From Zygnema cylindricum (lineage: Eukaryota > Streptophyta > Zygnematophyceae > Zygnematales > Zygnemataceae), in assembly GCA_037447655.1 (NCBI GenBank), contig JBBHKE010002158.1, positions 1 to 64,000 on the forward strand: 64,000 bases of DNA. Reading direction: 5' to 3'. Below are positions 17,910 to 55,500 of this stretch, in pieces (position 1 is the first letter of the stretch; the number at the start of each line of letters is the position of its first letter). Made by a program: the position numbers and the translations under genes. The notes below the pieces were generated by a model that worked only from the letters and a program-made list of their open reading frames with translations, was not told the DNA's origin and ran no database searches.

Positions 17910-18490
17910 ATAGATAGAATGGTCAGAGCTGATTCGGATGTATCCAGATCGGTGAGAAACTCATCTAGTTTCTTATTCCACTGTCGGGGAGCCTGTTTCA
18001 GTCCATATAAGGACTTTATGAGCCTGCAGACTTTGCTTTCTTCTCCTTCTTCCACAAACCCCTCGGGTTGCCTCATAAAAATTTCTTCCTCTAACTCACC
18101 ATTAAGAAAAGCAGTCTTAATGTCCATCTGGTGTATTTCCATGTCTTCCGCTGCGGCCAGACTGAGGAGAATCCTTACCGATGGGAATCGAACAACTGGA
18201 GCAAAAGTCTCCTCATAGTCAATCCCCTCTTTTTGGGTGAACCCTTTCTCTTCCAATCGAGCCTTATACCTCTCAATTGTATTATCTGGGTTCAGTTTTA
18301 GTTTAAATACCCATTTACATCCAATAGGTTTTCTGTCTGGAGGGCAATCCGCTAGATCCCAAGTATTTGCTTCCATGATAGAAGCCATCTCATCATTTAT
18401 GGCTCTAATCCATCTTTCTTTCTCTGGACTATTCACTCCCTCTAAGTAAGACTGAGGCTCATCTGGGTGAGATAGCTTAGTTACCTTATG
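17846..18490 (-). pseudogene. Copia A RT N-terminal half
   Basis: The frame starts near 18,436 in NSPEKERWIRAINDEMASIM and passes through GCKWVFKLKLNPDNTIERYKA and FTQKEGIDYEETFAPVVRFP, MDIKTAFLNGELEEEIFMRQ, and GLKQAPRQWNKKLDEFLTD. A one-base loss at about 17,945 then throws it out of frame. Comparison with copia A4 and A6 shows where the frame should continue. Upstream, another one-base loss near 18,520 separates this half from the integrase frame. Confidence 0.88.
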
Positions 18491-20301
18491 AGCAGCTTGT
18501 TTTTCCTGTATCCGTTGCTGCTCCTCCTTCCTCCCTCAAACTCCGAAGCTGGAATGGATGGAAGTCTTGGATTTCTTCTCATTGTCTCATCGGCTCCCTT
18601 GTCCATGGAAACCGGTTCTTGTGCCGCTTCATCTATCTCCTCGAAGTCCATGGGAGTATGCAAGGTTTCCGGTGAGTCTCCTGTATCTTGGATCTCCCCT
18701 GAATCTGTAATCACGGTGTCACCCATGTCCCTTTCGGGGACAACCGAGTTCTCCTCACTTTCGGACTCAAATCTGATCCTTATCTTCTTTGTATATTTGA
18801 AGGGGTCAAATGACTTCCCTTCATCCATGACAACTAAGTGTTTGACCAGAATGATATCTTTCTTTGCTAAGTCATAGACTCTATATCCCTTAACATCCTC
18901 ATCATATCCCACAAAGTATCCAAGTTTTCCCTTAGCATCTAGTTTCCAGTTTTTCCTATCCGTGTCAAGACTGTAAACTTGGCTACCAAATACTTTAAGG
19001 TGTGAGATATCTGGTTTCCTTCCAACCCATCTCTCATAAGGTGTCACTCCCTTTACAGCTGAGGTAAGGACTCTATTTTTAATATAGTTGGCACATTTCA
19101 TTGCCTCTGCCCAAAATCTCTTTCCTATTTTCTTGTCTGCCAACATACTCCATGCACTATCTCCTAGTGTTCTATTCAACCTCTCAGCTACCCCATTTTG
19201 TTCCGGATTATATGGTATAGTTTTCTGGTGTTGCACTCCCTCATCTCTCAGATATTCCTCAAACTGGTTACAGGTATATTCCCCCCCATTATCACTCCTT
19301 ATCCTCTTAATAGGGGTTTCATGCAATTTCTCACTCCATGCTTTATATTCTTTGAAGTAAGTTGATGCTTCAGACTTATTTTTCAGAAAGTAGACTCTAG
19401 AGTATCTAGACCAATCATCAGTTATTGTCATCATAAACCTCTTTCCTCCAACCGAAGGTACTTTTGCAGGTCCCCAAATGTCTGTGTGGACCAAATCTAA
19501 CACTTTCTCACCTCTATATGTGGCTGCTTTGGGAAAGGGAAGTCTGTGAGCCTTACCTTGAGCACAACCACTACAATCATCCATCATTTCATTATCCCCA
19601 AATTGAATGCTATCTACTACCCCAAGCTTTTTCGTTTCCCTTAACCTATCAAAATGCACATGCCCCAACCGCCTATGCCAAATCATCACCTTAGGAACAC
19701 CAACATAGTAAGCATTCTTCTTTTCATTACTCAAGTTAAGCCTAAACATTCCTTGGGTACCCTTATCTGTTGTAAAGTAAACTTCATCCGGATACTTAGC
19801 TGTAAAGACTCCCTTTCTAGTGAAAGTATCAAACTCTTTGTCATCTAACACAGACGTAGAGACAAGATTTTTACTCAGCTGAGGAATGTAAAGTACATCT
19901 GAGAATGTAAGTATGGAAGTCTTACCCTCCACTAAGACTTTCAGATCTACTAATCCCACTAGATCTGTAGTAACCACTCTCCCATCCCCATACTCTATCT
20001 CTACAGTAGGAATCTTTCTTAACTTAGTGAAGAGTTCTTTATCACGACACATATGCATGGATGCACCTGAGTCGATGATCCATCCTTCCTGTGGAGCTTC
20101 CCGGATTGCTCCAAGGGCACACTTCTGCCTCCGAGGAATATCCTTCTCCTCCAAACTCTCGTCAAGAAGAAGTTCCCCATCCTCCTCAGAGGACTCATCC
20201 TCGGTTTCTCCTGACACTTTTGTAACCACAAGTGCCTTTTTCTTCCCTCCGGAAGAACCCCCTCCACGGTTCTCTTGGAGCCTCAGCTGTGATAGCTTCA
20301 C
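18481..20301 (-). pseudogene. Copia A protease, GAG-pre-integrase and integrase (606-codon frame)
   Basis: The longest open frame in the window. An acidic linker (DESSEEDGELLLDESLEEKD) leads to the protease site WIIDSGASMHMC, with Asp at residue 77. A GAG-pre-integrase zinc region follows (WHRRLGHVHFDRL ... CSGCAQGKAH). The integrase core has Asp in LVHTDIWGPA, Asp in IRSDNGGEY and Glu in NGVAERLNRTL, the last two separated by the expected 35 residues. KPDISHLKVFGS and GYRVYDLAKK follow. The frame runs out after GGRRSSNG because of a one-base loss near 18,520. The first Met is internal; the true frame continues upstream into the CCHC knuckle. Confidence 0.9.
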
Positions 20302-21216
20302 ACAATCTGCAATAAAGTGTCCCGGCTTTTTGCAAAAATGACAAAGACCCTTTGGGGGCCTTCGTCCCCCAGAATGATCTCTTTCCCCTCTATAAGGTTT
20401 CTTCGGGTCCTTCCCCCATCAATCCCCTCCTGCTGCTAGAGCTTGAATGCTCTTTCCTCCTCTCCTAATCTCCATTGTGTTTTCCTGCACAAGTATCATC
20501 CTAACTACTGTGTTCCATTTCCATGAACTATCAGGCATTCCTTGTACTCGGTACACTATGTTTTCGAACTCATCTGGTAATTTCATGATAAGGGTGTTAA
20601 CTTTCATTTTCATTGTACCTGTCCACCCGGCACTTTCCATTTCTATATACAAACAAAAAAGATCATTACAGTAATCTAACATCTTTCCTCCTTTGTAAGT
20701 GTAACTCAATAGCTTTTGCTTAGCCAACTGGAGCTCCTAAATAGTTCCAGCTCTATAAATCTCCACCAAACTCTCCCACAACTCCTCGACCTTGTAAATG
20801 TGAAGATGAGGAGTGGCCAAACCTTGAGTGAGGTGCCTCAGAATGAAGTTCTTGGCAGCCATGTTTACATCCTCCCACATTTGAGTATCGTTCTCCACGG
20901 TCTTCACGGTCGCCGCTCCCGATACTGTGGCAATAGGAGTGAGGGGTGTCTCTTTCCCTTTCTCCTTTTCGGCCACACTGGTGTCCCCATCATCTGCCTC
21001 CTCCGCTGAGGCAGCCGTTGTTGCAGAAAACCTCACTCCCCCAAATCCTGGTGGAGTTCCAGAAGGTGGACGTTTCACTTGTCCACTAACGATACCCCAG
21101 TATCGTTTTTCACACAAAGCTCCCATCATCATGGCTTCCCAATAGATGAACCCAGATCCATTGAAGGTGGGCACCCTAAAGGGTGGGCCCATAACCTGCA
21201 ATTTTGTGTCCTCCAT
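20302..21216 (-). pseudogene. Copia A gag with CCHC knuckle
   Basis: The start codon at 21,214-21,216 lies inside the 5' LTR, 20 nt before its end. MEDTKLQVMGPPF follows, with VMGPP encoded by the primer-binding site. GFIYWEAMMMGALCEKRYWG and LRHLTQGLATPHLHIYKVEELWE are gag-like. A TAG at 20,737-20,739 interrupts after 159 codons; the same frame continues ELQLAKQKLLSYTYKGGKM for 102 more codons to a TGA near 20,419. The knuckle CHFCKKPGHFIADC (about 20,300-20,345) has perfect CX2CX4HX4C spacing. Confidence 0.85.
21182..21196 (-). other. Primer-binding site of copia A
   Basis: The plus strand reads GGTGGGCCCATAACC and abuts the LTR start TGCAATT at 21,197 with no spacer. The complement matches the anticodon loop and stem of plant initiator tRNA-Met over 15 nt. 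It does not match the tRNA 3' end (TGGTATCAGAGC type). Confidence 0.7.
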
Positions 21217-45299: not shown

Positions 45300-45868
45300 C
45301 TCCCTTAAACCTTTAGACTCTTTCAGCCACTAAGTCCACATACCTCTCTACAAAGCTTCAACTTAGGTGCAGGTAAAGGCTAAGTCATCATATCTGCTTT
45401 CATCATCTCATCCGGCAAATAACTGAGTTTAAAATTATGTTCACCACATTCTCTCTTACAAAATGCAACTTTACATCAATGTGTTTGCTTTTGAAGTGAT
45501 GACTTGGGTTAGATGCAATCACTATAGCAGCTTGGTTGTCACACCACGTTATTTGAGGTCTATATTACATAAAACGAAGTTCTTGAAGGAGAGAATTTAC
45601 CCAAAGTAACTCATTGACAGCTGAGCTAGTTGCCATGTAATCAGCCTCGATTGTAGACTGAGCTGTGACATTCTAAAGCTTGCTGCTCCAGCAACATGTT
45701 ACACTTCCGATCTTCAGAATGAATCTGGTGGTGGAGCGGCGGCTTGGTATGACTATGTAGCTCGCATCGGTTCAAGTATGAATCTTGACCTCTTCTCCGC
45801 CGAAAGCAAGTCGTATATTCCGTGACCTTGCAAGGTACCAAAGGACCCTCTTAGCTACCTCCCAATCC
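45300..45868 (-). pseudogene. Copia G RNase H
   Basis: From 45,868 on the minus strand: DWEVAKRVLWYLARSRNIRL, a stop, RRSTTRFILKIGSVTCCWSS, AQSTIEADYMATSSAVNELL, WCDNQAAIVIASNPSHHFKS. Several stops. It is cut at 45,869 by the start of the gypsy LTR. Confidence 0.75.
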
Positions 45869-46060
45869 TGTCGTGCATGTGACAAAAGAAATGATAAACA
45901 TGCAACACAACCAGTTGAATGATAAAACTCAAAGAATTAAACAAGAAAGTCATGGACTATTCGAGAAATTTGCGACATAAATCCGTACAAGCAGCAAGTA
46001 ACAAATAAACATATCACATGAAATAGAAAGTTAAGGTGAGAGAGGAAGCTAAGAGGCTTA
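45869..46060 (-). repeat. Candidate 3' LTR of the gypsy element
   Basis: TGTCGTGCATGTGAC begins exactly where the copia G RNase H frame breaks. The segment ends just before the purine-tract complement TTTATTCCCCCCCCC. About 190 bp. It is a candidate from position only, because no second copy is present. Confidence 0.45.
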
Positions 46061-46067
46061 GTTTATT

Positions 46068-46102
46068 CCCCCCCCCAGCTCTTTAGCCTGCTAAAGAGCT
46101 GG
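46068..46102 (-). other. 3' polypurine tract with abutting perfect hairpin
   Basis: The minus strand reads CCAGCTCTTTAGC, AG, GCTAAAGAGCTGG and runs straight into a G9 tract then AATAAA. The hairpin arms are 13 bp and perfect (46,075-46,102), and the last Gs of the arm are the first Gs of the purine tract. Confidence 0.7.
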
Positions 46103-46269
46103 CTAATACAAATGGTTACTCTCGGCAGCCGTGATAAAACTAATGGCCGTTTGGAACGGCCGTCAAAGGATGGACCAAACACTCCATGTGAAATCCATGG
46201 TTGCAATGGTCGCATAGTAGCATGGAAGTTTCTCCGTCAACGCGATTTCAAAGTGTGCATTCTTTAGCC

Positions 46270-47660
46270 TCAATGATAGGCATGCGCATAGAATCCATAT
46301 CCTGATAGAGATCCGACAAATAACATGGGGCGCAATTATTTTAATGCTCTTGAAAGGTTCGCGTATCTGCTCCTTGAAGTCCTAGTATACCATTCGTGTC
46401 TACTCCGATAATTTGAAGAATATGAGGTGGAATATAGGTGTTCAAGGTATCGAAGGATTGATGTAGTAAGTAGACATAATCTCCCACACTGTAAGGCTTC
46501 TGCAAGGGACGGTAGTTGTTGCTCCGTGTATTGGCAAAGCGCAATGTATCGCGGTGCTGGGGGATCTGCAGGTTTTGAAAAGCCATGGGCATCTCTCGGG
46601 CAAAAACACCTTCTTGTTAGTAAGTTCTTCTAGAAAAACCTCGTTAGAAAGTAAGGGAAGCGGAAAGCTTGCGGCTTTCTCGATATTCTTTCCCAACACG
46701 GGTTGACGCCCAAATAATACATAGTATAGATTGAAATTAGCAAGACTCGCCTGTACCGACATTCGATACCCCATGGCAATATAACCAAAAAACTTGTCTC
46801 AACACTGTTATATGTTTCTCCAAACAATGTTTGCGTAATGCCCGCTTGAAGGTCTACACTGCACGTTCTGCAAATCCATCAGCCTGTGGATGATCGCGAC
46901 TGGTTCGACAATGGTCTATGAGAGCGTCATCTAGCATTTCTTAGAATTCTCCACGGAATTTAGTCCCTTGATTTGTGAGGACTTCGGCTAGAGCGCCGTA
47001 TCTCATAAAGACATGTTCCTTAAAAGCAGCGATGGTGATCTTAGCAGTTTTGTTTGGTTACGCTACTACTTCAACCCATTTGCTAAAATTTTCAATCATG
47101 ATCATTATATATTGTTTTCCTTTCCGAGATATCGGGAACGCGCTTGCCAAATCGCACGACTAGCGGTAAAATAACCCTTTGATAGGTAATGGTTGGAGGG
47201 TGTTGTGCCGGTTGCTAAATGAGGTGCGTAGACGATCAAAAATTGCACACTTTTTGACATCAGATTGCATCCTAGACCACCATTATCGTGCTTGCAGCAA
47301 GCTTAAGGTACGCTTGGCCCCATAATGACCCAGTACCGTGTGAATTTGTTCAATCAGCAAGAGGCGTGCAATAGGGCGAGGCATGTGTGTGTGACTACTG
47401 TACGCTAACAATTGAACTAGCAATCGAACTAACCAAAGATAATTTTTAGCTCTTTTCTTTACTCGTTCCTCCTCCTCGGATGTAGTGCCTCGTCGTACGG
47501 TTTGTGAGGAGAGGAAAATAATTAGTTGTCCATCTCGCCATGGATCTTGGGCAGAACGAGAGGCGGGCAGCGAAGCTAAAGAATGTGTGTTACAAAACCC
47601 TGCCGATATAGTAGCTAAGTCGTCATCAAAATTTTGTCGGACTTCATTGTCTGTGGTCAG
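46270..47660 (-). pseudogene. Gypsy integrase
   Basis: The zinc head is near 47,310 (EQIHTVLGHYGAKRTLSLL). The core starts near 47,150 with a stop, CDLASAFPISRKGKQYIMIM and ENFSKWVEVVA. Then come KEHVFMRYGALAEVLTNQG, where the catalytic Asp of the usual TDQG is Asn, and HPQADGFAERAV with the Glu. The 46,442-46,774 frame holds SVQASLANFNLYYVLFGRQ. The C-terminal domain at 46,341-46,592 reads YSVGDYVYLLHQSFDTLN and IPPHILQIIGVDTNGILGLQ. Several frame changes and the Asp-to-Asn change make it inactive. Confidence 0.8.
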
Positions 47661-47672
47661 TGGCAAAGGATT

Positions 47673-47949
47673 TCAAGAAATGTCGTCTACATTCAGACTA
47701 AGTAATCCTGGATGGTGAATTATTTCCACATCATATTCTTGTAAAATTAATGCCCATCTTGCTAATTTCCCTAACAGTTTTTCGTTTGTCATTAGCCAAT
47801 GTAAGGTTTGATGATTTGTTAAAGATGTGGTTTTCCGTAAAGGTAATGAAGAAAGTGTACAATATCCCAAACTGCCGCCAAACATTCTCTTTCATAACTA
47901 CCGTAATTTGAATCCGCGCGATTATTACTTCTGCTTGCGTAAGCAACAA
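47673..47949 (-). pseudogene. Gypsy RNase H
   Basis: The frame at 47,673-47,885 carries LTNHQTLHWLMTNEKLLGKL, ARWALILQEYDVEIIHHPG and NVDDIS, the C-terminal half of gypsy RNase H. The N-terminal part lies in another frame up to about 47,949 (ECLAAVWDIVHFL region). It follows RT and precedes the integrase zinc head. Confidence 0.82.
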
Positions 47950-48029
47950 CGTATTCTTCTCTTGTTAGTTCTCGCTGAGTTAAGATGGCCTTGATGCTAG
48001 GCTTACCAAATTTTGTTTGTCAACAGAAA

Positions 48030-49000
48030 GGTTATTTGTTATAAGGAGGTCGGAGAATTGTAGCACTAGAGAGGGCATCTTTCAACTTATGGAACGCTAA
48101 AATCTGATAAGGTCCTCTAACGAAAGGAACTTTTTTCTTGAGCAAATCGTTCAATGGTGAAGCGATAGTGGTGAAACTAGGAACAAACCTGCGATAATAA
48201 TTAGCTAATCCTATGAAGGCTCGAAGACTCATAAGATCAACGAGGTTGGCAGTTTGCTGATAGCCTCGGTTTTTGCTTCTAGTGGTGTGTTTCCATTGGA
48301 GGAAGGCACACCCTTGGACCCGAAAGTTCATTTAGTTGGATGACATTTTAATCGGACCTTTTTGAATTCAGTTAGGACCCAATCTATATGAGCTGCATGA
48401 TCTTCAATTGTGGTAGAGGCAATAATCAAATCATCAATATAACATCGTGCAAATTTGCAGCTACCTAAAACTAAATCCATTACTTTTTAAAAAAGTGCGG
48501 GGGGGTTCTTAAGTCCAAAAGGCATGACAGACCACTCCCAGCGACCATCACTACCCCAAAAGGCGGTTTTATGCTTTTCTTCTCCTCTATTTCAATCTGA
48601 TTAAAACTTGTCCTAAATTAAGAATGCTGAAATATTTAGCACCTCCTACATGATCAAATATATCTTCAGCCAATGGCATTTTTTATGACGATCTTGTATC
48701 GTTCTAGCATTGAGTTCACGATAATCGCGGCACATGCGGCAATCATTAAAGTTTACTTTGGCATCTTTTTTTCGGTGCTGCAAAAGTAGAGCCCGATCGA
48801 TAAATGAGGCCAACTTCCTCCAATTCAGCGCAGCGTTGGTCCACTAATTCCCATTTGATTTCAGATAAGCGATGTTTCAGCTTGAAAATGGGACAATCGT
48901 CTTTGGGATCTATAGACATGTTATAGGTGGTATGGCGACCAAGATCATTCATAGAGAAAGCAAAAACGTCGATATTTTGGAGAATCACTTTGTTCAAAAT
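48030..49000 (-). pseudogene. Gypsy reverse transcriptase
   Basis: N-terminal part at 48,746-48,997 (LQNIDVFAFSMNDLGRHTTY, CAELEEVGLIYRSGSTFAAP). The middle is broken by stops. The catalytic strand FARCYIDDLIIAS has YIDD at 48,430-48,441, preceded by MPFGLKNPPALF. The thumb/connection at 48,032-48,331 reads RAFIGLANYYRRFVPSFTTI and SPLNDLLKKKVPFV. Sequence style is Ty3/gypsy, not copia. Confidence 0.85.
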
Positions 49001-49373
49001 CTCATGTTCAGATTAAGAGAGATTAAAGCCAAATTTCCATTTAGGATTTTCCGAACTTTTAAACGTCATCGCTTCCATGGCTTGTGCAAAAGCTAGTGGT
49101 TCATCCGCGATAAGTGACTGACCTAATGAGTAAACAACCGGTGATTTCTTTAAGCAGTTTGTCCAATGGTGCCAACTGCGAGTAGAAGGCGTTGACATAT
49201 GAATACAGGAAGCAGATTGGGTAGCACTATATGTTGGAATAGAGCATGACATGTGGCTAGGGTTCAAGAAATCGTAGATTGTGACATCTGGAGAAGGTTT
49301 TATAAGGGATGGAAAGAGGAAAAATTGAGAAGGTGTCCCCAAAAGGGTGGCTAGAGATTGTGTATGTATGTGT

Positions 49374-50530
49374 TTAGAAATTGATGATGCATCCCCCCCC
49401 CCCAGCTAGATGAGACGGATGGGTTTGTGCATATCGACTTGCTGCAACCAAAGCCACGACAAACGAGGGATTGAGGTCCATTATCACGACCAAAAGGATC
49501 AACTCTTGTTCTAGTCGTAGAGCAACCATAGTGTTGGGAAGGAAATGCATAAGGTGTTTCCTTTCTGTGGCTGTAGGTGCATTTAGGCCGCCTGTGTGAA
49601 TATTTTTAAGCAGGCTCGGTCCATCACCAGAGAAAGCGTGAGAGTGTGGATAAGACACTAGAGTGGGGAGTACTTTGAGTGGTTGACCTGAGACGTTGAT
49701 GTTGTAATTCGGGGGGTGATGAGGCTGCAAACAAATTTGGACTTTGTGAAAAGGAAGAAGTGTTGTTTGAATTTTTGTAAAAGGGTGTCTGACTGAAAGA
49801 TTTCCTTCTCTTAGGCGACCACTATCAATCAAGTTGGTCCATTTTGGTCGGACCCGATGAGCTAAAGACCCGTGTCGAACGGCATCAATGATAAGAGGAG
49901 GACCAATTAATGCTTCTATCCGCTTGTAATTAACTAACACTGTAGGTCGAGGATCGTTATAGGCAGCCACGTTTTCCAAAACATATCCCAATGGTTGATT
50001 GAATGAATGCAAAAAATGCATGATACCAAGTAATTCAAAGAATAATTTAGTGGAAGGGTCAGCTAAGCCAAGACCTTTGCTTGCAGGTGACATTCCCATA
50101 CACTCCCAACATGCAAATAGAAGATAAATTGGTTCCACATCGAGAAGGTGTTGATTGCCTATCAAACAAATATCTTGAGGTAAGGTTGTATGCATGTGAG
50201 CAAAGGCAGATTTAGGGATAAGATGTGGATATTTTCCTTGTAAAAGATAACAGTGATGTGTCAAGGTTTTCCGAGCTAGAGGGTCAATGTCAACCACTAG
50301 TAATGTTTGATAAGTAATCTGTTATGAAGGCATGAAAGTAGAGAGGTACCTATGCTTGCGAATAGATCTAAAATGACTAGACCATCTTGATGAGGTTTGA
50401 CCTGAATTGGTTTCAAATTAATGTAAAGAAAACCGGAGTGATCTACAGAAAATAAGAGGAAGAGGTGGAACATGCGATAAAGGAATTTGAAGTGTGTGTT
50501 CGTAGATGTGATCAAAGTCGCGGGAATCAA
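49374..50530 (-). pseudogene. C5-cytosine DNA methyltransferase domain captured by the gypsy element
   Basis: About 385 codons in two frames meeting near 50,310. Frame 1 has motif I, ILDLFASIGTSLL (SAM binding). Frame 2 (307 codons, open from 50,297) has motif II VDIDPLARKTL, a LPQDICLIG stretch (motif III position), motif IV LLFACWECMGMSPASKGLGL with the nucleophile Cys but Glu where Pro is usual, KLFFELLGIMHFL, motif VI GYVLENVAAY, DAVRHGSLAHRVRPKWTNL (motif VIII position), ERKHLMHFLPNTM and a final MDLNPSFVVALVA (motif IX/X position). By memory of the families, KGL...LFFEL, ENV and AHR.R..W.NL resemble DNMT3-type enzymes. It sits between protease and RT in line with the polyprotein. The frameshift between motifs I and II inactivates this copy. 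Confidence 0.8.
49393..49407 (-). other. Candidate central polypurine tract
   Basis: The minus strand reads AGCT followed by G11 at the 3' end of the methyltransferase frame. The 3' tract at 46,068-46,080 likewise reads AGCT then G9. Internal purine tracts prime extra plus strands in some retroelements; that role here is inference. Confidence 0.4.
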
Positions 50531-50651
50531 TAATAAAATCTAGATTATCAAAAAGTTAATGCAAAGAATGACTTTCAGGCAGAATTTCCTATGCGGAAAG
50601 AGAATGAAAAGTTTCAAATCCCACCGCATTTCCGGAATAAACAGGGACAGA

Positions 50652-51593
50652 TTAGTTTGCGTGAGCCATAACCGGAATGGGTTGTCGTGCTGAAATTAGC
50701 GGGAGACAAATATTCTTTTCCGGATAATTGGTATGATGGTAAGAAAAAGTCTGATTGTATACATCAACGCCGCCTCCTACTCTAAAAACCACATCTTGCC
50801 CCACCAAACACTCATAATTACTACATTTGGTGACCAATGCGTGAGCACAAACTTTCGCAAAATCAGATTCTCTACCGTTTTGAAACCTAAAACACAGTGG
50901 ATTTAATGTCCAAAATTGGTTGGGTAGTTCTCGCTCAGGTGAGTAAATGTGTGGTGGTGGATCAGCTGTCAGACCTAGTTTGAGTGCAAAAGATGACCCC
51001 AAAATAACTGGTTTTGAACCGGTGTCCATAAGTGGTAATGACGGTATGACACCATTGATTGAAAATGCACCCTTCCGATTATCTAAAAAAATGATGTGTG
51101 GGTCAAGTGAAAAACGCTCGTTGGTAGAGATTGGTTTAAGAACGTCAAGATTACGATTCATTTGTAAAGCATGTAATGCAACAGATGAGATGGATCTGAC
51201 AGTAGTTTTAGGGTTGGGAGAATCGGAAATCATAATATGACTATCTTGAATTGAGCCGTCAAGAATGGCGAGTGCTTTTGCTATGATGATGGAAGTTGTT
51301 TCGGGCAAATTGGTTACGGTTTCTTTAGAAAATGATAATGGGAGAAGGGTACTAGATTGTTTACCCTCGCGATTGTGATAAAATGTTTCCATGTCAAACG
51401 TGTTTGCCCGCTTTTGAATGGTTGAATCTCGTAAAACTCGATCAGCTAGCGTGGGAAGATGGACATCTGTACAAGCCATACCAGTTAGATAACTCGGCGG
51501 TTTCATTTGAGCCATCAAGGCTGCAAACTGGTATTTGATCATAGCAACCAATTGAGTTTGCATTTCCTCTCTCTCTTTTTCTCGTCGAGACAC
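50652..51593 (-). pseudogene. Gypsy protease region (313-codon frame)
   Basis: Opens MSRREKEREEMQTQLVAMIK (probably internal to gag-pol). The aspartic protease motif is SLPLMDTGSKPVILGSSFAL (Asp-Thr-Gly intact). CLVGQDVVFRVGGGVDVYN follows, like the second protease half. It ends shortly before the methyltransferase. The frame is clean for 313 codons, the longest intact piece of the element. Confidence 0.75.
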
Positions 51594-52580
51594 TTTAGGT
51601 GTAGAGTGTTTTTTCTAGCTCCGTAACAGGTTGGACTACTTTGGCAGATCTAGCCAGTATTCTACCATATCGAATATGATTTTGAAAAGAAAATTTAAGG
51701 TTTTTAATGTGACAACGATACACACAATGTTCGGTCTGTTTGCAGTGTGTACAGGTCACAAAAATTTTCGGGCACACCCGAGCATCATGTTGGTCTTGCC
51801 ACATCGGAAACAAATCCGATAGGATGGTTGATTTGGTGGAGTTCCCATGGCTGGGACCCTTGGTGGCCGATTATTTGGCCCTAAGTTACGAGGATTTGGG
51901 GAATTGAAAGGGTTGCGATCTTTTTGAGGGGTTTTTGGTCGATCGTGGGCCTCCAACCAAACAATTCGTCATCTCGTATTCTATGGCGCATTGAGCTGCC
52001 TGGTTAAACGTAAATTTGAGACCATATGTTTGGGTAAGATGGCTTTGAATAAATTTCTTTAACCAGAAAAGAAACAGTCCAACAAAATTCTGGACAGCTT
52101 CGACATCTCATATTTGATCGGATAACTCTTCCCGCAAGGTCTCAATGCAGGCTCGTAAAGCAGGGGCAATTTCGCCCGGGTTACGCTCAAAATTTATAAA
52201 TTACTTACCTTGGTCAGGATTTTGCATACGATAGTCCTCTTGTAACAAAGTAAACATTTAGTGAGAGGGTCTAGTAACGGGATAGTCATCCCGGGTTGTG
52301 CCGAGACAGCGGCTCGGGCTGCAATGGCATACTAGTTGGGAACCTTTGCCACAACCGGGTCTAAAACATTGCCAATCGCATCTAAGACCTCGAGAATAGC
52401 AGCTTGATAAGGAAATTTTGATTGACCTACGACCTCAAGCATACCAGCATACTGTGGAGAATATTAAGTCATCGCAAGTATGCCATCATACTTGCGGGAA
52501 TGTAAGGTAAGGGCGGACCCGCGAAGTTAAGGCCCGAGAAGGGAGAAAGCGACACGCATGTCAAATATATTTTGGTAACA
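51594..52580 (-). pseudogene. Gypsy gag capsid and double zinc knuckle
   Basis: Capsid-like residues VVAKVPN near 52,340, FLFWLKKFIQSHLTQTYGLK and FTFNQAAQCAIEYEM at 52,090-51,970, in broken frames. Then a Pro/Asn-rich linker (51,756-51,956) and two knuckles read across a frame change: CFRCGKT...HDARVC and CTHCKQTEHCVYRC. Confidence 0.7.
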
Positions 52581-53753
52581 AAAAGCTAGATCTCACATTT
52601 CAGTGTCGAAAACATTTGAAAATGAGATAAACTCATAGTATCCTTCATTCCGAAAAAGCACAATAGACGTTTGCTACGAGTACCCTCCCATGTGGAGGCC
52701 ATCAAAAGAGACGAGTTAGTCGAATTAAAATCTTGAATCGGTGCTTGCGGAGACCAAAAAAGAAAGGAAATTTGAATTTTTTTCCCTTTTGTTATCAACC
52801 TCTTCCACAAATACCGTGGAAAGGGTGGATGAAAAATATGAGACTTTGGTTAAATATGAACGAGTAGATGACGCTCTAGATTCACTTAATGGACTTAACG
52901 TCAAAGGAACCAAATTTGTTCAATTCGATTGATCAAAATTTGATGAACCGAAAGTTCCACCACTACGTGTAGATCCGTATGAAGTGGTCAAGATTATCCC
53001 TATCAGTGGGCATAAAAATGATTGAGAAAACAATCTAATCTGCTAATAGATACGCCCTATACGAGGTGCAGCAAATGCCAAACCATACCACATACGTAGG
53101 CAACAACCTTAAACAGTCTCTAACAAGGCTACGATGGCCAGATCTAGTCAAGAGGCCGCTTTTATCAAAACCTCTACCCTGCAAACAAGTGGGCAAGGCC
53201 AAAGGAATCTATATAGGCAAAAAATTGCTAAACAAGCACCCAGAGGTGCAGATCTAACGCTCCACAAGCAGAAAATAGTTGTATCCAAGGCCACCAACAC
53301 CCAGATCTAACAATAAAATTCCACCCCAAACAGACAACAAGAAAAACACAAGGCCAGTCACTACCAGATGGCAAGCATGGAAAGCGTGGACGGTACAAAT
53401 GCTCAATACAATTAGGTTTAGGTGAACCCAATCCACTCACAAACCCTTTAAACAATCAACAACTATCTTCACACGTTCCTGCACCCGCAAGGCATTGTGA
53501 ACTACAAACCACTCTTAGCAATGTGGTGATGGCGAAGGGTGAACTGTCATTGTTTCCTACAACCGAAGTTTTATAAAGATCGCGCAACGGATTCGCTCCA
53601 CTAACTCCTCTCCAATTCCAAATTGTCGAGCCGACACCATAGCTCAATTACAAACTTAGTTAGTAGCCTGCAAGGGCACGCGTATCAACACTATTTCACG
53701 CTCTACCCAACTATAAAGCAATTTTAATTTTATGTGATAATTTGTGCAGCCTA

Positions 53754-53800
<47 letters not shown>
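52581..53800. other. Probable gypsy leader, then unassigned DNA ending in a (TA)n tract
   Basis: 52,586-52,760 on the minus strand may still belong to the gypsy 5' region (APIQDFNSTNSSLLMASTWE). A 63-codon plus-strand frame at 52,741-52,932 (VERVDEKYETLVKYERVDDA) is not recognised. No 5' LTR or primer site was found. Uninterrupted TA repeats occupy about 53,757-53,801. Confidence 0.4.
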
Positions 53801-53803
<3 letters not shown>

Positions 53804-53850
53804 ATGGTTTTTTTTTTTTTAGGTTTTTTTTATTGGTTTAAGTTTTCTAG

Positions 53851-54315
53851 GTGGATGAGGAGGAAGAAGGGGAAGAGGAGAAAGAGGATGAAGATATTTT
53901 AGAGCTTCTACGGATTAGTAGTATAGGGAAGAGAGAAAAAAACACAGAAATTCCACGAAAGCAACAGTGTGCTTTTGGTGGTATAAATGAAGTAAAGAGA
54001 GAGGAGGTTTTTGAGGATGTCGAGGAGTGTAGAGTGTATGACTTAGAAATGAGAAAGTTAGATCTAGGATCCATAAGTGAAAACGGGAAAGATAAAAATA
54101 ACGAGGATAATTTTATAGATAATAGGGAAACAAAAAACTGGTCGGAAAGGGAGACTTCAACGGATTCCGAGGAAAATGGAGAAGTGAAACTCGAAGAGGT
54201 TTTAAAGGATAGGAGAGAAGAGGAATATTTAATGAAATGTTTAGGGGAGGAGAAATACTTATTGGGAATAAATTTAGAAAGAGAGAGTGGAAAGAAATCC
54301 ATGGAGGAAAGTTGA
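53851..54315 (+). CDS. 154-codon ORF stitched from copia polyprotein pieces
   Basis: An open frame of 154 codons, very acidic and basic (Glu/Asp/Lys). Three stretches align by eye with separate parts of the family-A polyprotein in the right order: KNTEIPRKQQCAFGGI with the linker before protease (DIPRRQKCALGAI), VEECRVYDLEMRK with the integrase tail (VKGYRVYDLAKK), and CLGEEKYLLGINLERESGKK with the RT segment DLGEAKYILGIQMERDRGKK. About 3 kb of element has been removed between them without closing the frame. No enzyme domain survives. It may be chance, or a non-autonomous element protein. Confidence 0.5.
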   Translation: MDEEEEGEEEKEDEDILELLRISSIGKREKNTEIPRKQQCAFGGINEVKREEVFEDVEECRVYDLEMRKLDLGSISENGKDKNNEDNFIDNRETKNWSERETSTDSEENGEVKLEEVLKDRREEEYLMKCLGEEKYLLGINLERESGKKSMEES

Positions 54316-55500
54316 ATGGTTATGGGTTTGAGAAGGGGTGGATGGATGGGAGGAACAGGGTATATCTGGGGAGATGGATGGCTGGAAGGAATGGGATGGA
54401 AGGTGGTGGAATGAAAGAAATGGATGGGACTTCATAAAATTGGATCAACAAGAGAAATGCCTTAACTCATCTAATGGACCTTTAAAATGTGGGGAATATT
54501 GTCATAAAAGGTTTATGAAAGGAAAAAAAAAAGGAAAATAGACTAGAAAATAAGGGGAGTGTTGATATTTGAGTATTTTATAGGTGTGTATTAGGATAGA
54601 AAAAGAGCAGAAGCAGTCTGCCTCTGACTCCCTTATCCAAGCCCCCATACTTGTTGTAGTCACTGAAGGCTAGATAGGGTGACACAGTCATGGCTGCCTG
54701 AGTTCTCCAAGAGAGACGTTCATAAAAAGGATTGACTAGCGCAGGGTTTGATCCAGGTACCTGCCCACAATCAAAGTAGCCGTTAGCTCTAGCCGTTAAG
54801 TCTAGAATAATGCTAATATATGTAGGGTTTGACAAATATTTAAATAGTAACACGTAGACTAGTTCGATTAACGAGATATAGATATGTAGTACATGGAAAT
54901 AGTTTTAGGTAGTACGGAGTACGGTTTCGATGTTTTATGAAACGGATATCGCGCACTTGTTTCGACCGCGGAACAAATACCGCGCCTCGAATTTCAGCGG
55001 CTATGATTATATCCGCTTTTGATCAGACGATCGCGATAGGCGCCGCGATCACGGAAGAGGTACATTTGGCGTTTTACGGTCATTGCCACGTTAGATGACA
55101 CGTGGCGTGATACCATTGGATTACGAGAACTCCGAAGATTACGGGAACAAATCATGATTTGACACATGTCGACATTTTGGCCATGTTGTACAATGGCCGT
55201 ATAGAAAGTACACCGACACCTGTTTTTTTCTGTACGACACAGTGATTTGATTGGTGCCGTACTTCAGTAGATAGAGTTTTAGAGGGGGAATAGGACTTAG
55301 GAAATTTTGGGTAGGTAGCTGCCTCTCCCAGAGAGCATCTTGTATAAATGGCGAACTTTGGCCAGCCATAACTATCAATTTACTTGACCATTTTGAGTGA
55401 TTCTTTTTGCTGCGGACTCATGGTAGTCCATGCTACATGGGGTGTAGTCGGTCAGAGTTTTTGCTTGCCAGGGCGGCACTTATTGAGTGGGAAAGTCAAA
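53851..55500 (+). mobile_element. Internally deleted mini-copia (A8) with 3' LTR
   Basis: Plus-strand body at 53,851-54,559 ends in the purine tract ACTAGAAAATAAGGGGAG, followed at 54,560 by an LTR start TGTTGATATTTG. The LTR has the A4-type stem-loop, a degenerate tRNA-like block and a TATA box (TGTATAAATG, 55,341-55,350). Its far end is not sharp; after about 55,500 family-A pol sequence of the next element begins. No 5' LTR was found. Confidence 0.6.

Follow-up and report, generated by a model that had tools for sequence, protein, structure and literature searches.

We examined a stretch of 64,000 nucleotides from the streptophyte Zygnema cylindricum (GenBank assembly GCA_037447655.1, contig JBBHKE010002158.1, positions 1 to 64,000 of the forward strand), which we refer to as the window. 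Its minus strand carries, at 45,869-53,820, a decayed Ty3/gypsy retrotransposon that includes a C5 cytosine DNA methyltransferase (DNMT) domain. The domains are arranged in the order gag, protease, C5 methyltransferase, reverse transcriptase (RT), RNase H, integrase and PHD finger; the order protease-RT-RNase H-integrase, with a gypsy-type RT and the integrase after RNase H, places the element in Ty3/gypsy (Metaviridae). An initial annotation, made from the letters alone, had reported C5 methyltransferase motifs between a protease frame and a gypsy RT on the same strand, and all of these motifs are indeed present, on the minus strand. It had placed the element at 45,869-52,760. The coding part, delimited by aligning the protein of another copy in the genome (L009) with the window, runs from 52,702 to 46,086; the 3′ limit of 45,869 is reached by untranslated homology to one copy only, L016, while on the 5′ side untranslated homology to several copies extends past the annotated limit, to 53,820. 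The annotated domain list was right but missed the PHD finger.

The methyltransferase domain lies at 49,374-50,539 (minus strand) in two overlapping frames, with motif I (LDLFASIG) in the frame 50,539-50,297 and VDID, WEC, ENV and AHRVR in the frame 50,321-49,374; motifs I, IV (with its Cys), VI (ENV) and HRxR follow one another in order. Homology searches with the domain first returned a single relative, P0002 (E=4e-28, 31% identity), and a second relative, P0150, matches it with 39% identity over 317 amino acids (E=3e-62). A profile of the relatives' DNMT domains matches the frame 49,377-50,321 at E=4e-66. In 20 random sequences that share the dinucleotide composition of the window, the protease, DNMT, RT, RNase H, integrase and PHD profiles found nothing at E≤10; the PHD profile found no match in the real window either, because stops split the PHD piece. 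The Pfam search that the initial annotation had proposed recovered the RT (PF00078, E=7.5e-6), whereas PF00145 (DNA_methylase) scored this copy at 13.6 bits (E=0.046), below its cut-off of 22 and too weakly to decide the matter. That sub-threshold score and a search of PDB sequences with the window DNMT frame, which gave no match at E≤1, would fit motifs that are fortuitous and no methyltransferase at all. The matches to P0002, P0150 and the relatives' profile, together with PF00145 at E=2e-11 on the L009 frame, refute this explanation, and we consider its probability negligible.

When solved structures were searched with the family profile, DNMT3A was the best match (7e-18), against 2e-7 for HaeIII, 3e-7 for the plant DNA methyltransferase 4onj, which we take to be DRM, and 5e-5 for HhaI, and DNMT1 was not among the 60 chains matching at E≤0.01. 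In a Foldseek search with a model of the window frame, the 50 matches listed of 73 at E≤0.001 were all DNMT3 enzymes or their complexes (DNMT3A/B/C); the model is of moderate quality (pLDDT 69.6, TM about 0.45) and motif I lies outside it. Judged by sequence and predicted fold, the enzyme is DNMT3-like.

The other domains were delimited by comparison with relatives and with L009, all on the minus strand. The gag remnant, with a CCHC zinc-knuckle region (51,615-52,702), matches P0150 amino acids 197-293 at 52,254-51,967 (38% identity, E=3e-13) and L009 amino acids 154-398 at 52,702-51,970, and is followed by an aspartic protease frame that includes the end of gag (50,652-51,614; 38% identity to the P0150 protease, E=5e-25; relatives' protease profile, E=5e-18). 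Past the methyltransferase come the remnants of the Ty3/gypsy RT with its YIDD motif (48,328-49,012; relatives' RT profile, E=1e-15), of RNase H including the RT end (47,673-48,331; relatives' RNase H profile, E=4e-18; L009 amino acids 1672-1808, 80% identity) and of the integrase, with an H2C2 zinc finger and core (46,336-47,672; PF17921, E=0.0059; L009 amino acids 1810-2395 at 47,828-46,086, 62% identity). The PHD-finger remnant, at about 46,125-46,260, keeps its core (MLLCDHCNHGFHMECL) within a single frame, flanked by stops, and aligns with the PHD end of P0150 and L009, where Pfam finds a PHD. A 5′ untranslated region at 52,988-53,820 was recognized by nucleotide homology (blastn) to L009, L011-L015 and L017, and a 3′ untranslated internal region at 45,869-46,085 by alignment with L016 and side-by-side comparison with L009; the motif ending at 45,869 is the same as that directly before the 3′ long terminal repeat (LTR) of L009. 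The L009 protein matches the window copy in six pieces, with changing frames and many in-frame stops, and the copy is dead, as the initial annotation stated. No LTR pair was found for it: a search for long direct repeats gave none, and the terminal repeats of five other copies have no convincing match there.

Several observations concern the edges of the element and its surroundings. Where L009 starts its 3′ LTR, the window copy adjoins a copia-like RNase H sequence (45,770-45,868), and the LTR is not there. Just past the end of pol (window 46,060-46,100, minus strand; L009 9200-9245) stands a hairpin (AGCTCTTTAGC / GCTAAAGAGCT in the window) and then a run of 9-12 G; the hairpin and the run, of nine G here, lie inside the 3′ untranslated region, and the run may represent the polypurine tract. 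Another run of G is found near 49,395-49,404. A repeat at 53,851-55,000 recurs outside the C1915 copy and beside the C1864 copy and apparently belongs to a different element, and several copia-like minus-strand frames, one of them open over 645 amino acids (18,481-20,418), are located at 6,494-30,000.

Copies in the genome and constraint on the enzyme

In the same genome (352.8 Mb, 2689 contigs) the window DNMT frame has at least 127 matches, counting the window itself and one copy that appears as two rows, and the others are 56-79% identical to it; PF00145 has at least 123 matches. Among the 12 best PF00145 loci, 11 are retroelement-type DNMTs beside a protease and/or RT match, and one is an exon like that of a host chromomethylase. 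The less decayed copies in the order protease-DNMT-RT that the initial annotation suggested looking for do exist, among them L009 (at C1344), a single uninterrupted frame of 2395 amino acids with all domains in the order of the window, along which Pfam finds DNA_methylase, RVT_1, RNase H, H2C2, rve and PHD.

The C1344 copy is flanked by a direct pair of terminal repeats of 931 bp that are 100% identical, and its same-strand self-comparison shows, besides these, only two short tandem repeats. Of the seven copies examined besides that of the window, five, C1344 included, have direct repeats. The repeats of the remaining four show 99.5% identity over 1475 bp at C1915, 96.3% over 1220 bp at C2602, 80.3% over 1225 bp at C449, and mixed placing at C232 (620 bp with 96.6% identity, 187 bp and 108 bp); the repeat edges at the copies other than C232 are not exact. 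The C1407 and C783 copies showed no terminal repeats within the flanks fetched. Since the terminal repeats are identical or near-identical at C1344 and C1915, at least one uninterrupted copy is a recent insertion, and the family was apparently active until recently.

A second subfamily with the same domain order occurs in this genome, its nearest relatives being P0145, P0148 and the Marchantia proteins described below. At G000:C961:71320-72072, a family RT-RNase H match lies inside an uninterrupted frame of 5743 amino acids, far longer than the 2395-amino-acid frame of the element. At locus L016 (G000:C1643, 4020-5069, minus strand), a stretch of DNMT sequence is open over 350 amino acids and has 86% DNA identity to the window, and there is no RT or integrase in 9.9 kb. 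We considered a solitary, perhaps domesticated DNMT at this locus; what is found there is only the DNMT stretch and about 200 bases of the 3′ end beside unrelated sequence, and it is probably a fragment.

The fusion itself might be a chance juxtaposition, with a host gene or another element nested in a gypsy element, as could be suggested by the several other transposable-element pieces in the window and by the lone DNMT stretch of L016. This is refuted by the same fusion in the single frame of L009 and in relatives from several sources, and by the agreeing trees presented below, and we regard it as highly improbable.

For the estimates of nonsynonymous to synonymous substitution (dN/dS), 35 copies were examined, chosen largely for open frames, and in 22 of them the DNMT frame is open across 80% or more of the domain; the estimates cover the protease, DNMT and RT-RNase H segments, as the integrase segment yielded no usable pairs. 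The median dN/dS of the DNMT was 0.23 over 57 pairs with dS of 0.02-1.5 (54 of them below 0.5 and none at or above 1), that of RT-RNase H was 0.043 (five pairs) and that of the protease 0.58 (eight pairs, one at or above 1). For four of six close DNMT pairs, the value 1 lies outside the bootstrap 95% interval. The enzyme evolves under constraint. Compared with the five copies nearest to it, the window frame gives dN/dS of 0.33-0.37, as expected for past constraint followed by decay.

Relatives, domain orders and descent

As the first search with the window DNMT frame gave a single relative, further ones were gathered by searching on from relatives: P0002 gave 153 proteins (120 listed), and P0120, in a search that scored the 8000 candidates sharing most words, gave 38. 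The resulting set comprises 157 distinct proteins (P0002-P0158), whose domain positions were taken from profiles built on the relatives. Named sources include Haematococcus lacustris, Cymbomonas tetramitiformis and Closterium sp. NIES-53, besides Marchantia polymorpha and Sphagnum fallax, and two codes, Chrzof1 and Mesvir1, presumably stand for Chromochloris zofingiensis and Mesostigma viride; none of the matches was recognized as a Klebsormidium nitens sequence. One Cymbomonas protein named Methyl-CpG-binding domain-containing protein 9 (P0107) is, by its domains, a DNMT-integrase-PHD retroelement polyprotein, and the name is probably misleading.

Two domain orders are found in this set. In 35 of the 157 relatives the DNMT precedes the RT or, where the protein stops short of the RT, comes straight after the protease; in 80 it follows RNase H, and in 42 its position relative to the RT was not readable. 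P0150 (2358 amino acids) has protease, DNMT, RT, RNase H, integrase and PHD finger in one protein, and almost every piece of the window element finds its best match, or one close to the best, in it (38% identity for the protease, 54-62% for RT pieces, 59-67% for RNase H, 28% and 42% for integrase pieces). The DNMT lies between protease and RT in P0146 and P0142 as well. The initial annotation had read the window element as another retrotransposon with a captured DNMT built into gag-pol between protease and RT, and the same order in L009, P0150, P0146 and P0142 bears this out; full-length relatives in which the stretch is absent, which it had allowed for, were not what we found, as relatives carry the DNMT at this very place. 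The best identity between the element family and a Closterium sp. NIES-53 element is 54%. The order protease-DNMT or protease-DNMT-RT also occurs in Marchantia polymorpha (Mp_4g09160, Mp_8g17980 and MARPO_0091s0058) and Sphagnum fallax (BDL97_09G086500), in proteins that have at most 36% identity to the window DNMT where listed and are annotated as hypothetical, as uncharacterized or by domain only. In the Sphagnum model the DNMT profile matched in three pieces and part of the RT is absent.

Separate trees of the DNMT and RT-RNase H parts, another check that the initial annotation had named, were built by a quick method with SH-aLRT support from 44 elements, out of 55 that passed length filters, thinned at 75% RT identity and with L009 representing the window family. 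They agree on the clade with DNMT before RT: a branch separates its five elements from the 39 others in the RT-RNase H tree (support 100) as well as in the DNMT tree (support 99). The trees leave out P0038 and P0145, in which no RNase H was found, and P0158, which has a short DNMT match. The two orders do not separate without exception, because the DNMT of P0038, which has the order protease-DNMT-RT, groups with that of P0047, which has the other order (support 94). Read most simply, these sequences would mean that the enzyme was captured either once, long ago, and later moved within the element, or twice, from related donors, and that enzyme and element have descended together since.

As to the source of the enzyme, 36 IMG/VR loci carry methylases that match the DNMT family, the high-scoring contigs being L053-L058. 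With the family profile the best of them reaches 64.2 bits against 65.3 for a DNMT3A fragment without its C-terminal part, a comparison biased against DNMT3A. Descent from DNMT3 is not proved, because these viral methylases score nearly as high as the fragment. The methylase stretches of these loci contain no frame of at least 100 amino acids matching the RT, RNase H, integrase, protease or PHD profile, and a search of IMG/VR with the window DNMT frame as query gave no match. It is conceivable, though in our estimate somewhat short of even, that a Ty3/gypsy lineage acquired a methyltransferase before the split of green algae and streptophytes and kept it under selection, in at least two domain orders and usually with a PHD finger on the integrase, into liverworts and mosses.

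Proposed role of the enzyme

The window holds a dead copy of a multicopy Ty3/gypsy family with a DNMT3-like C5 methyltransferase between protease and RT and a PHD finger at the integrase C-terminus, and we think it probable that the enzyme premethylates the element's own cDNA. The gag-pol polyprotein would bring the methyltransferase into the virus-like particle, where it may methylate the new cDNA de novo, probably at CG, during or after reverse transcription. The new copy would thus carry the mark by the time it integrates, and MET1 of the host could maintain it from then on. The host genome has two DNMT1-RFD matches at one locus, as we would assume for a MET1-like gene, and a chromomethylase-like exon at C514, which we read as such from its motif. 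The PHD finger probably reads the histone H3 tail and steers integration; chromodomains are thought to direct chromovirus integration likewise. The element might benefit by escaping the sensors with which the host detects foreign DNA, by harming the host less or by limiting itself, and similar ideas are discussed by de Mendoza 2018 (PMC5890265). That source also reports that SymbioDIRS-Dnmt3 enzymes methylate CG de novo in yeast, which counts in favour of premethylation. In the window copy, CpG transition loss exceeded that of the partner copy in all 13 pairwise comparisons.

A number of results weigh against this account. The CpG-transition excess is small (0.14-0.25 compared with 0.12-0.18 at other C/G sites, in 11 near copies) and is reversed in two distant copies (0.22-0.24 compared with 0.30), and a heavy CpG-decay signature was looked for and was not found. 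Target-site duplications of Ty3/gypsy elements measure 4-6 bp, and none is clear in the flanks of the copies examined for terminal repeats. A listed DNMT place lies within 3 kb of 19 of the 35 RT-RNase H places in the genome and not of the other 16 (judged by eye, the DNMT lists being lower bounds), and the DNMT domain may be dispensable in some copies. The dN/dS pairs are not independent, the near-identical L009 and L010 were both counted, copies were mostly picked for open frames, and the constraint on the DNMT is weaker than that on RT-RNase H. Motif IV reads GWECQ in the window and in copies of its subfamily, with Glu in place of the Pro that usually precedes the catalytic Cys; such a Glu is found in 31 of the 157 relatives and Pro in 90, and judging from the motif the exchange may lower or change activity. 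Finally, KnitGypsy-Dnmt3 produced no methylation in a yeast assay, a result inconclusive according to its authors (de Mendoza 2018, PMC5890265).

The exchange in motif IV, the weaker constraint and the inactivity in yeast of both KnitGypsy-Dnmt3 and SymbioLINE-Dnmt, for the latter of which RNA methylation was proposed (de Mendoza 2018), would also suit an element built as described whose domain is no longer mainly a DNA methyltransferase and serves nucleic-acid binding, RNA methylation or particle structure. This is unlikely in our view, as DNMT3A is the nearest solved relative, a second-subfamily copy in the same genome (L094) has the usual GWPCQ, and the catalytic Cys, ENV/ENI and HRVR are mostly retained in copies: among 23 with open frames, motif IV with Cys was found in 20, motif VI in 21, HRVR in 16 and motif I in nine, several of the alignments counted beginning after motif I. 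Alternatively, the enzyme may act in trans and have the host genome, rather than the element's own cDNA, as its target; silencing by the host would then be disturbed or diluted, allowing the element to be expressed. The high copy number would suit such action, and an effect of this kind is discussed for Symbiodinium (de Mendoza 2018). Fusion inside gag-pol, on the other hand, suggests action in the particle, and Klebsormidium nitens, with similar elements, has a land-plant-like methylome, yet fewer copies than Symbiodinium according to the same authors. We judge trans action to be less likely still than a non-methyltransferase role.

Methylation of DNA ranks among the chief weapons of hosts against transposons, which makes it paradoxical that a transposon lineage of long standing should carry a DNA methyltransferase. 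The genome studied here holds some hundred copies or more, of which at least one has identical terminal repeats, and its MET1- and CMT-like host genes could keep the marks in place. The breadth of the family is more interesting than the window element itself. If the old capture before the split of green algae and streptophytes were true, self-methylation would be an old and stable replication strategy of green plants and not a rare accident, and as the family reaches Marchantia polymorpha, a standard laboratory plant, the purpose of the enzyme is testable there.

Comparison with known systems

The closest described system is KnitGypsy-Dnmt3 of Klebsormidium nitens, an LTR Gypsy element with an intronless Dnmt3-related domain in the Pol frame and Ka/Ks below 0.2 (de Mendoza 2018, PMC5890265), the precedent that the initial annotation had cited correctly. 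Both are streptophyte LTR Gypsy elements with the domain inside the Pol frame and under purifying selection (median dN/dS 0.23 here). They differ in their repeats, which are DIRS-like in KnitGypsy-Dnmt3 according to a figure legend, whereas the C1344 copy has plain direct terminal repeats by same-strand comparison. SymbioDIRS-Dnmt3 and SymbioLINE-Dnmt of Symbiodinium are likewise retrotransposons with their own C5 methyltransferase, but one is a DIRS element with a tyrosine recombinase and the other a LINE, not Ty3/gypsy, and their authors consider them independent of the Klebsormidium case (PMC5890265). The ChloroDNMTs of chlorophytes and charophytes (PMC12344493), compared by description only, are C5 methyltransferases of the same host groups, often with a PWWP domain. 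The same 2025 survey mentions earlier reports of DNMT3 members in streptophyte and dinoflagellate retrotransposons, and it names the LTR elements among these Copia.

Other gypsy polyproteins, green algal for the most part where named (Haematococcus lacustris QJQ45_005505, and those of Chromochloris and Cymbomonas by their codes or names), share a related DNMT and often the PHD finger, but have the DNMT between RNase H and integrase and fall on the opposite side of the branch in both trees. The Marchantia and Sphagnum proteins, in contrast, have the DNMT in the order seen in the window. They speak against the printed statement that methylase-bearing retrotransposons, hosted by green algae and charophytes, are absent from land plants (PMC6338049). 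Within the open-licence PMC literature, represented mostly by titles and abstract starts, there was no description of such gypsy elements in land plants, nor of two domain orders. While the kind of element is known from Klebsormidium, its reach into a liverwort and a moss, its two domain orders and its PHD finger, as read from the sequences, look new.

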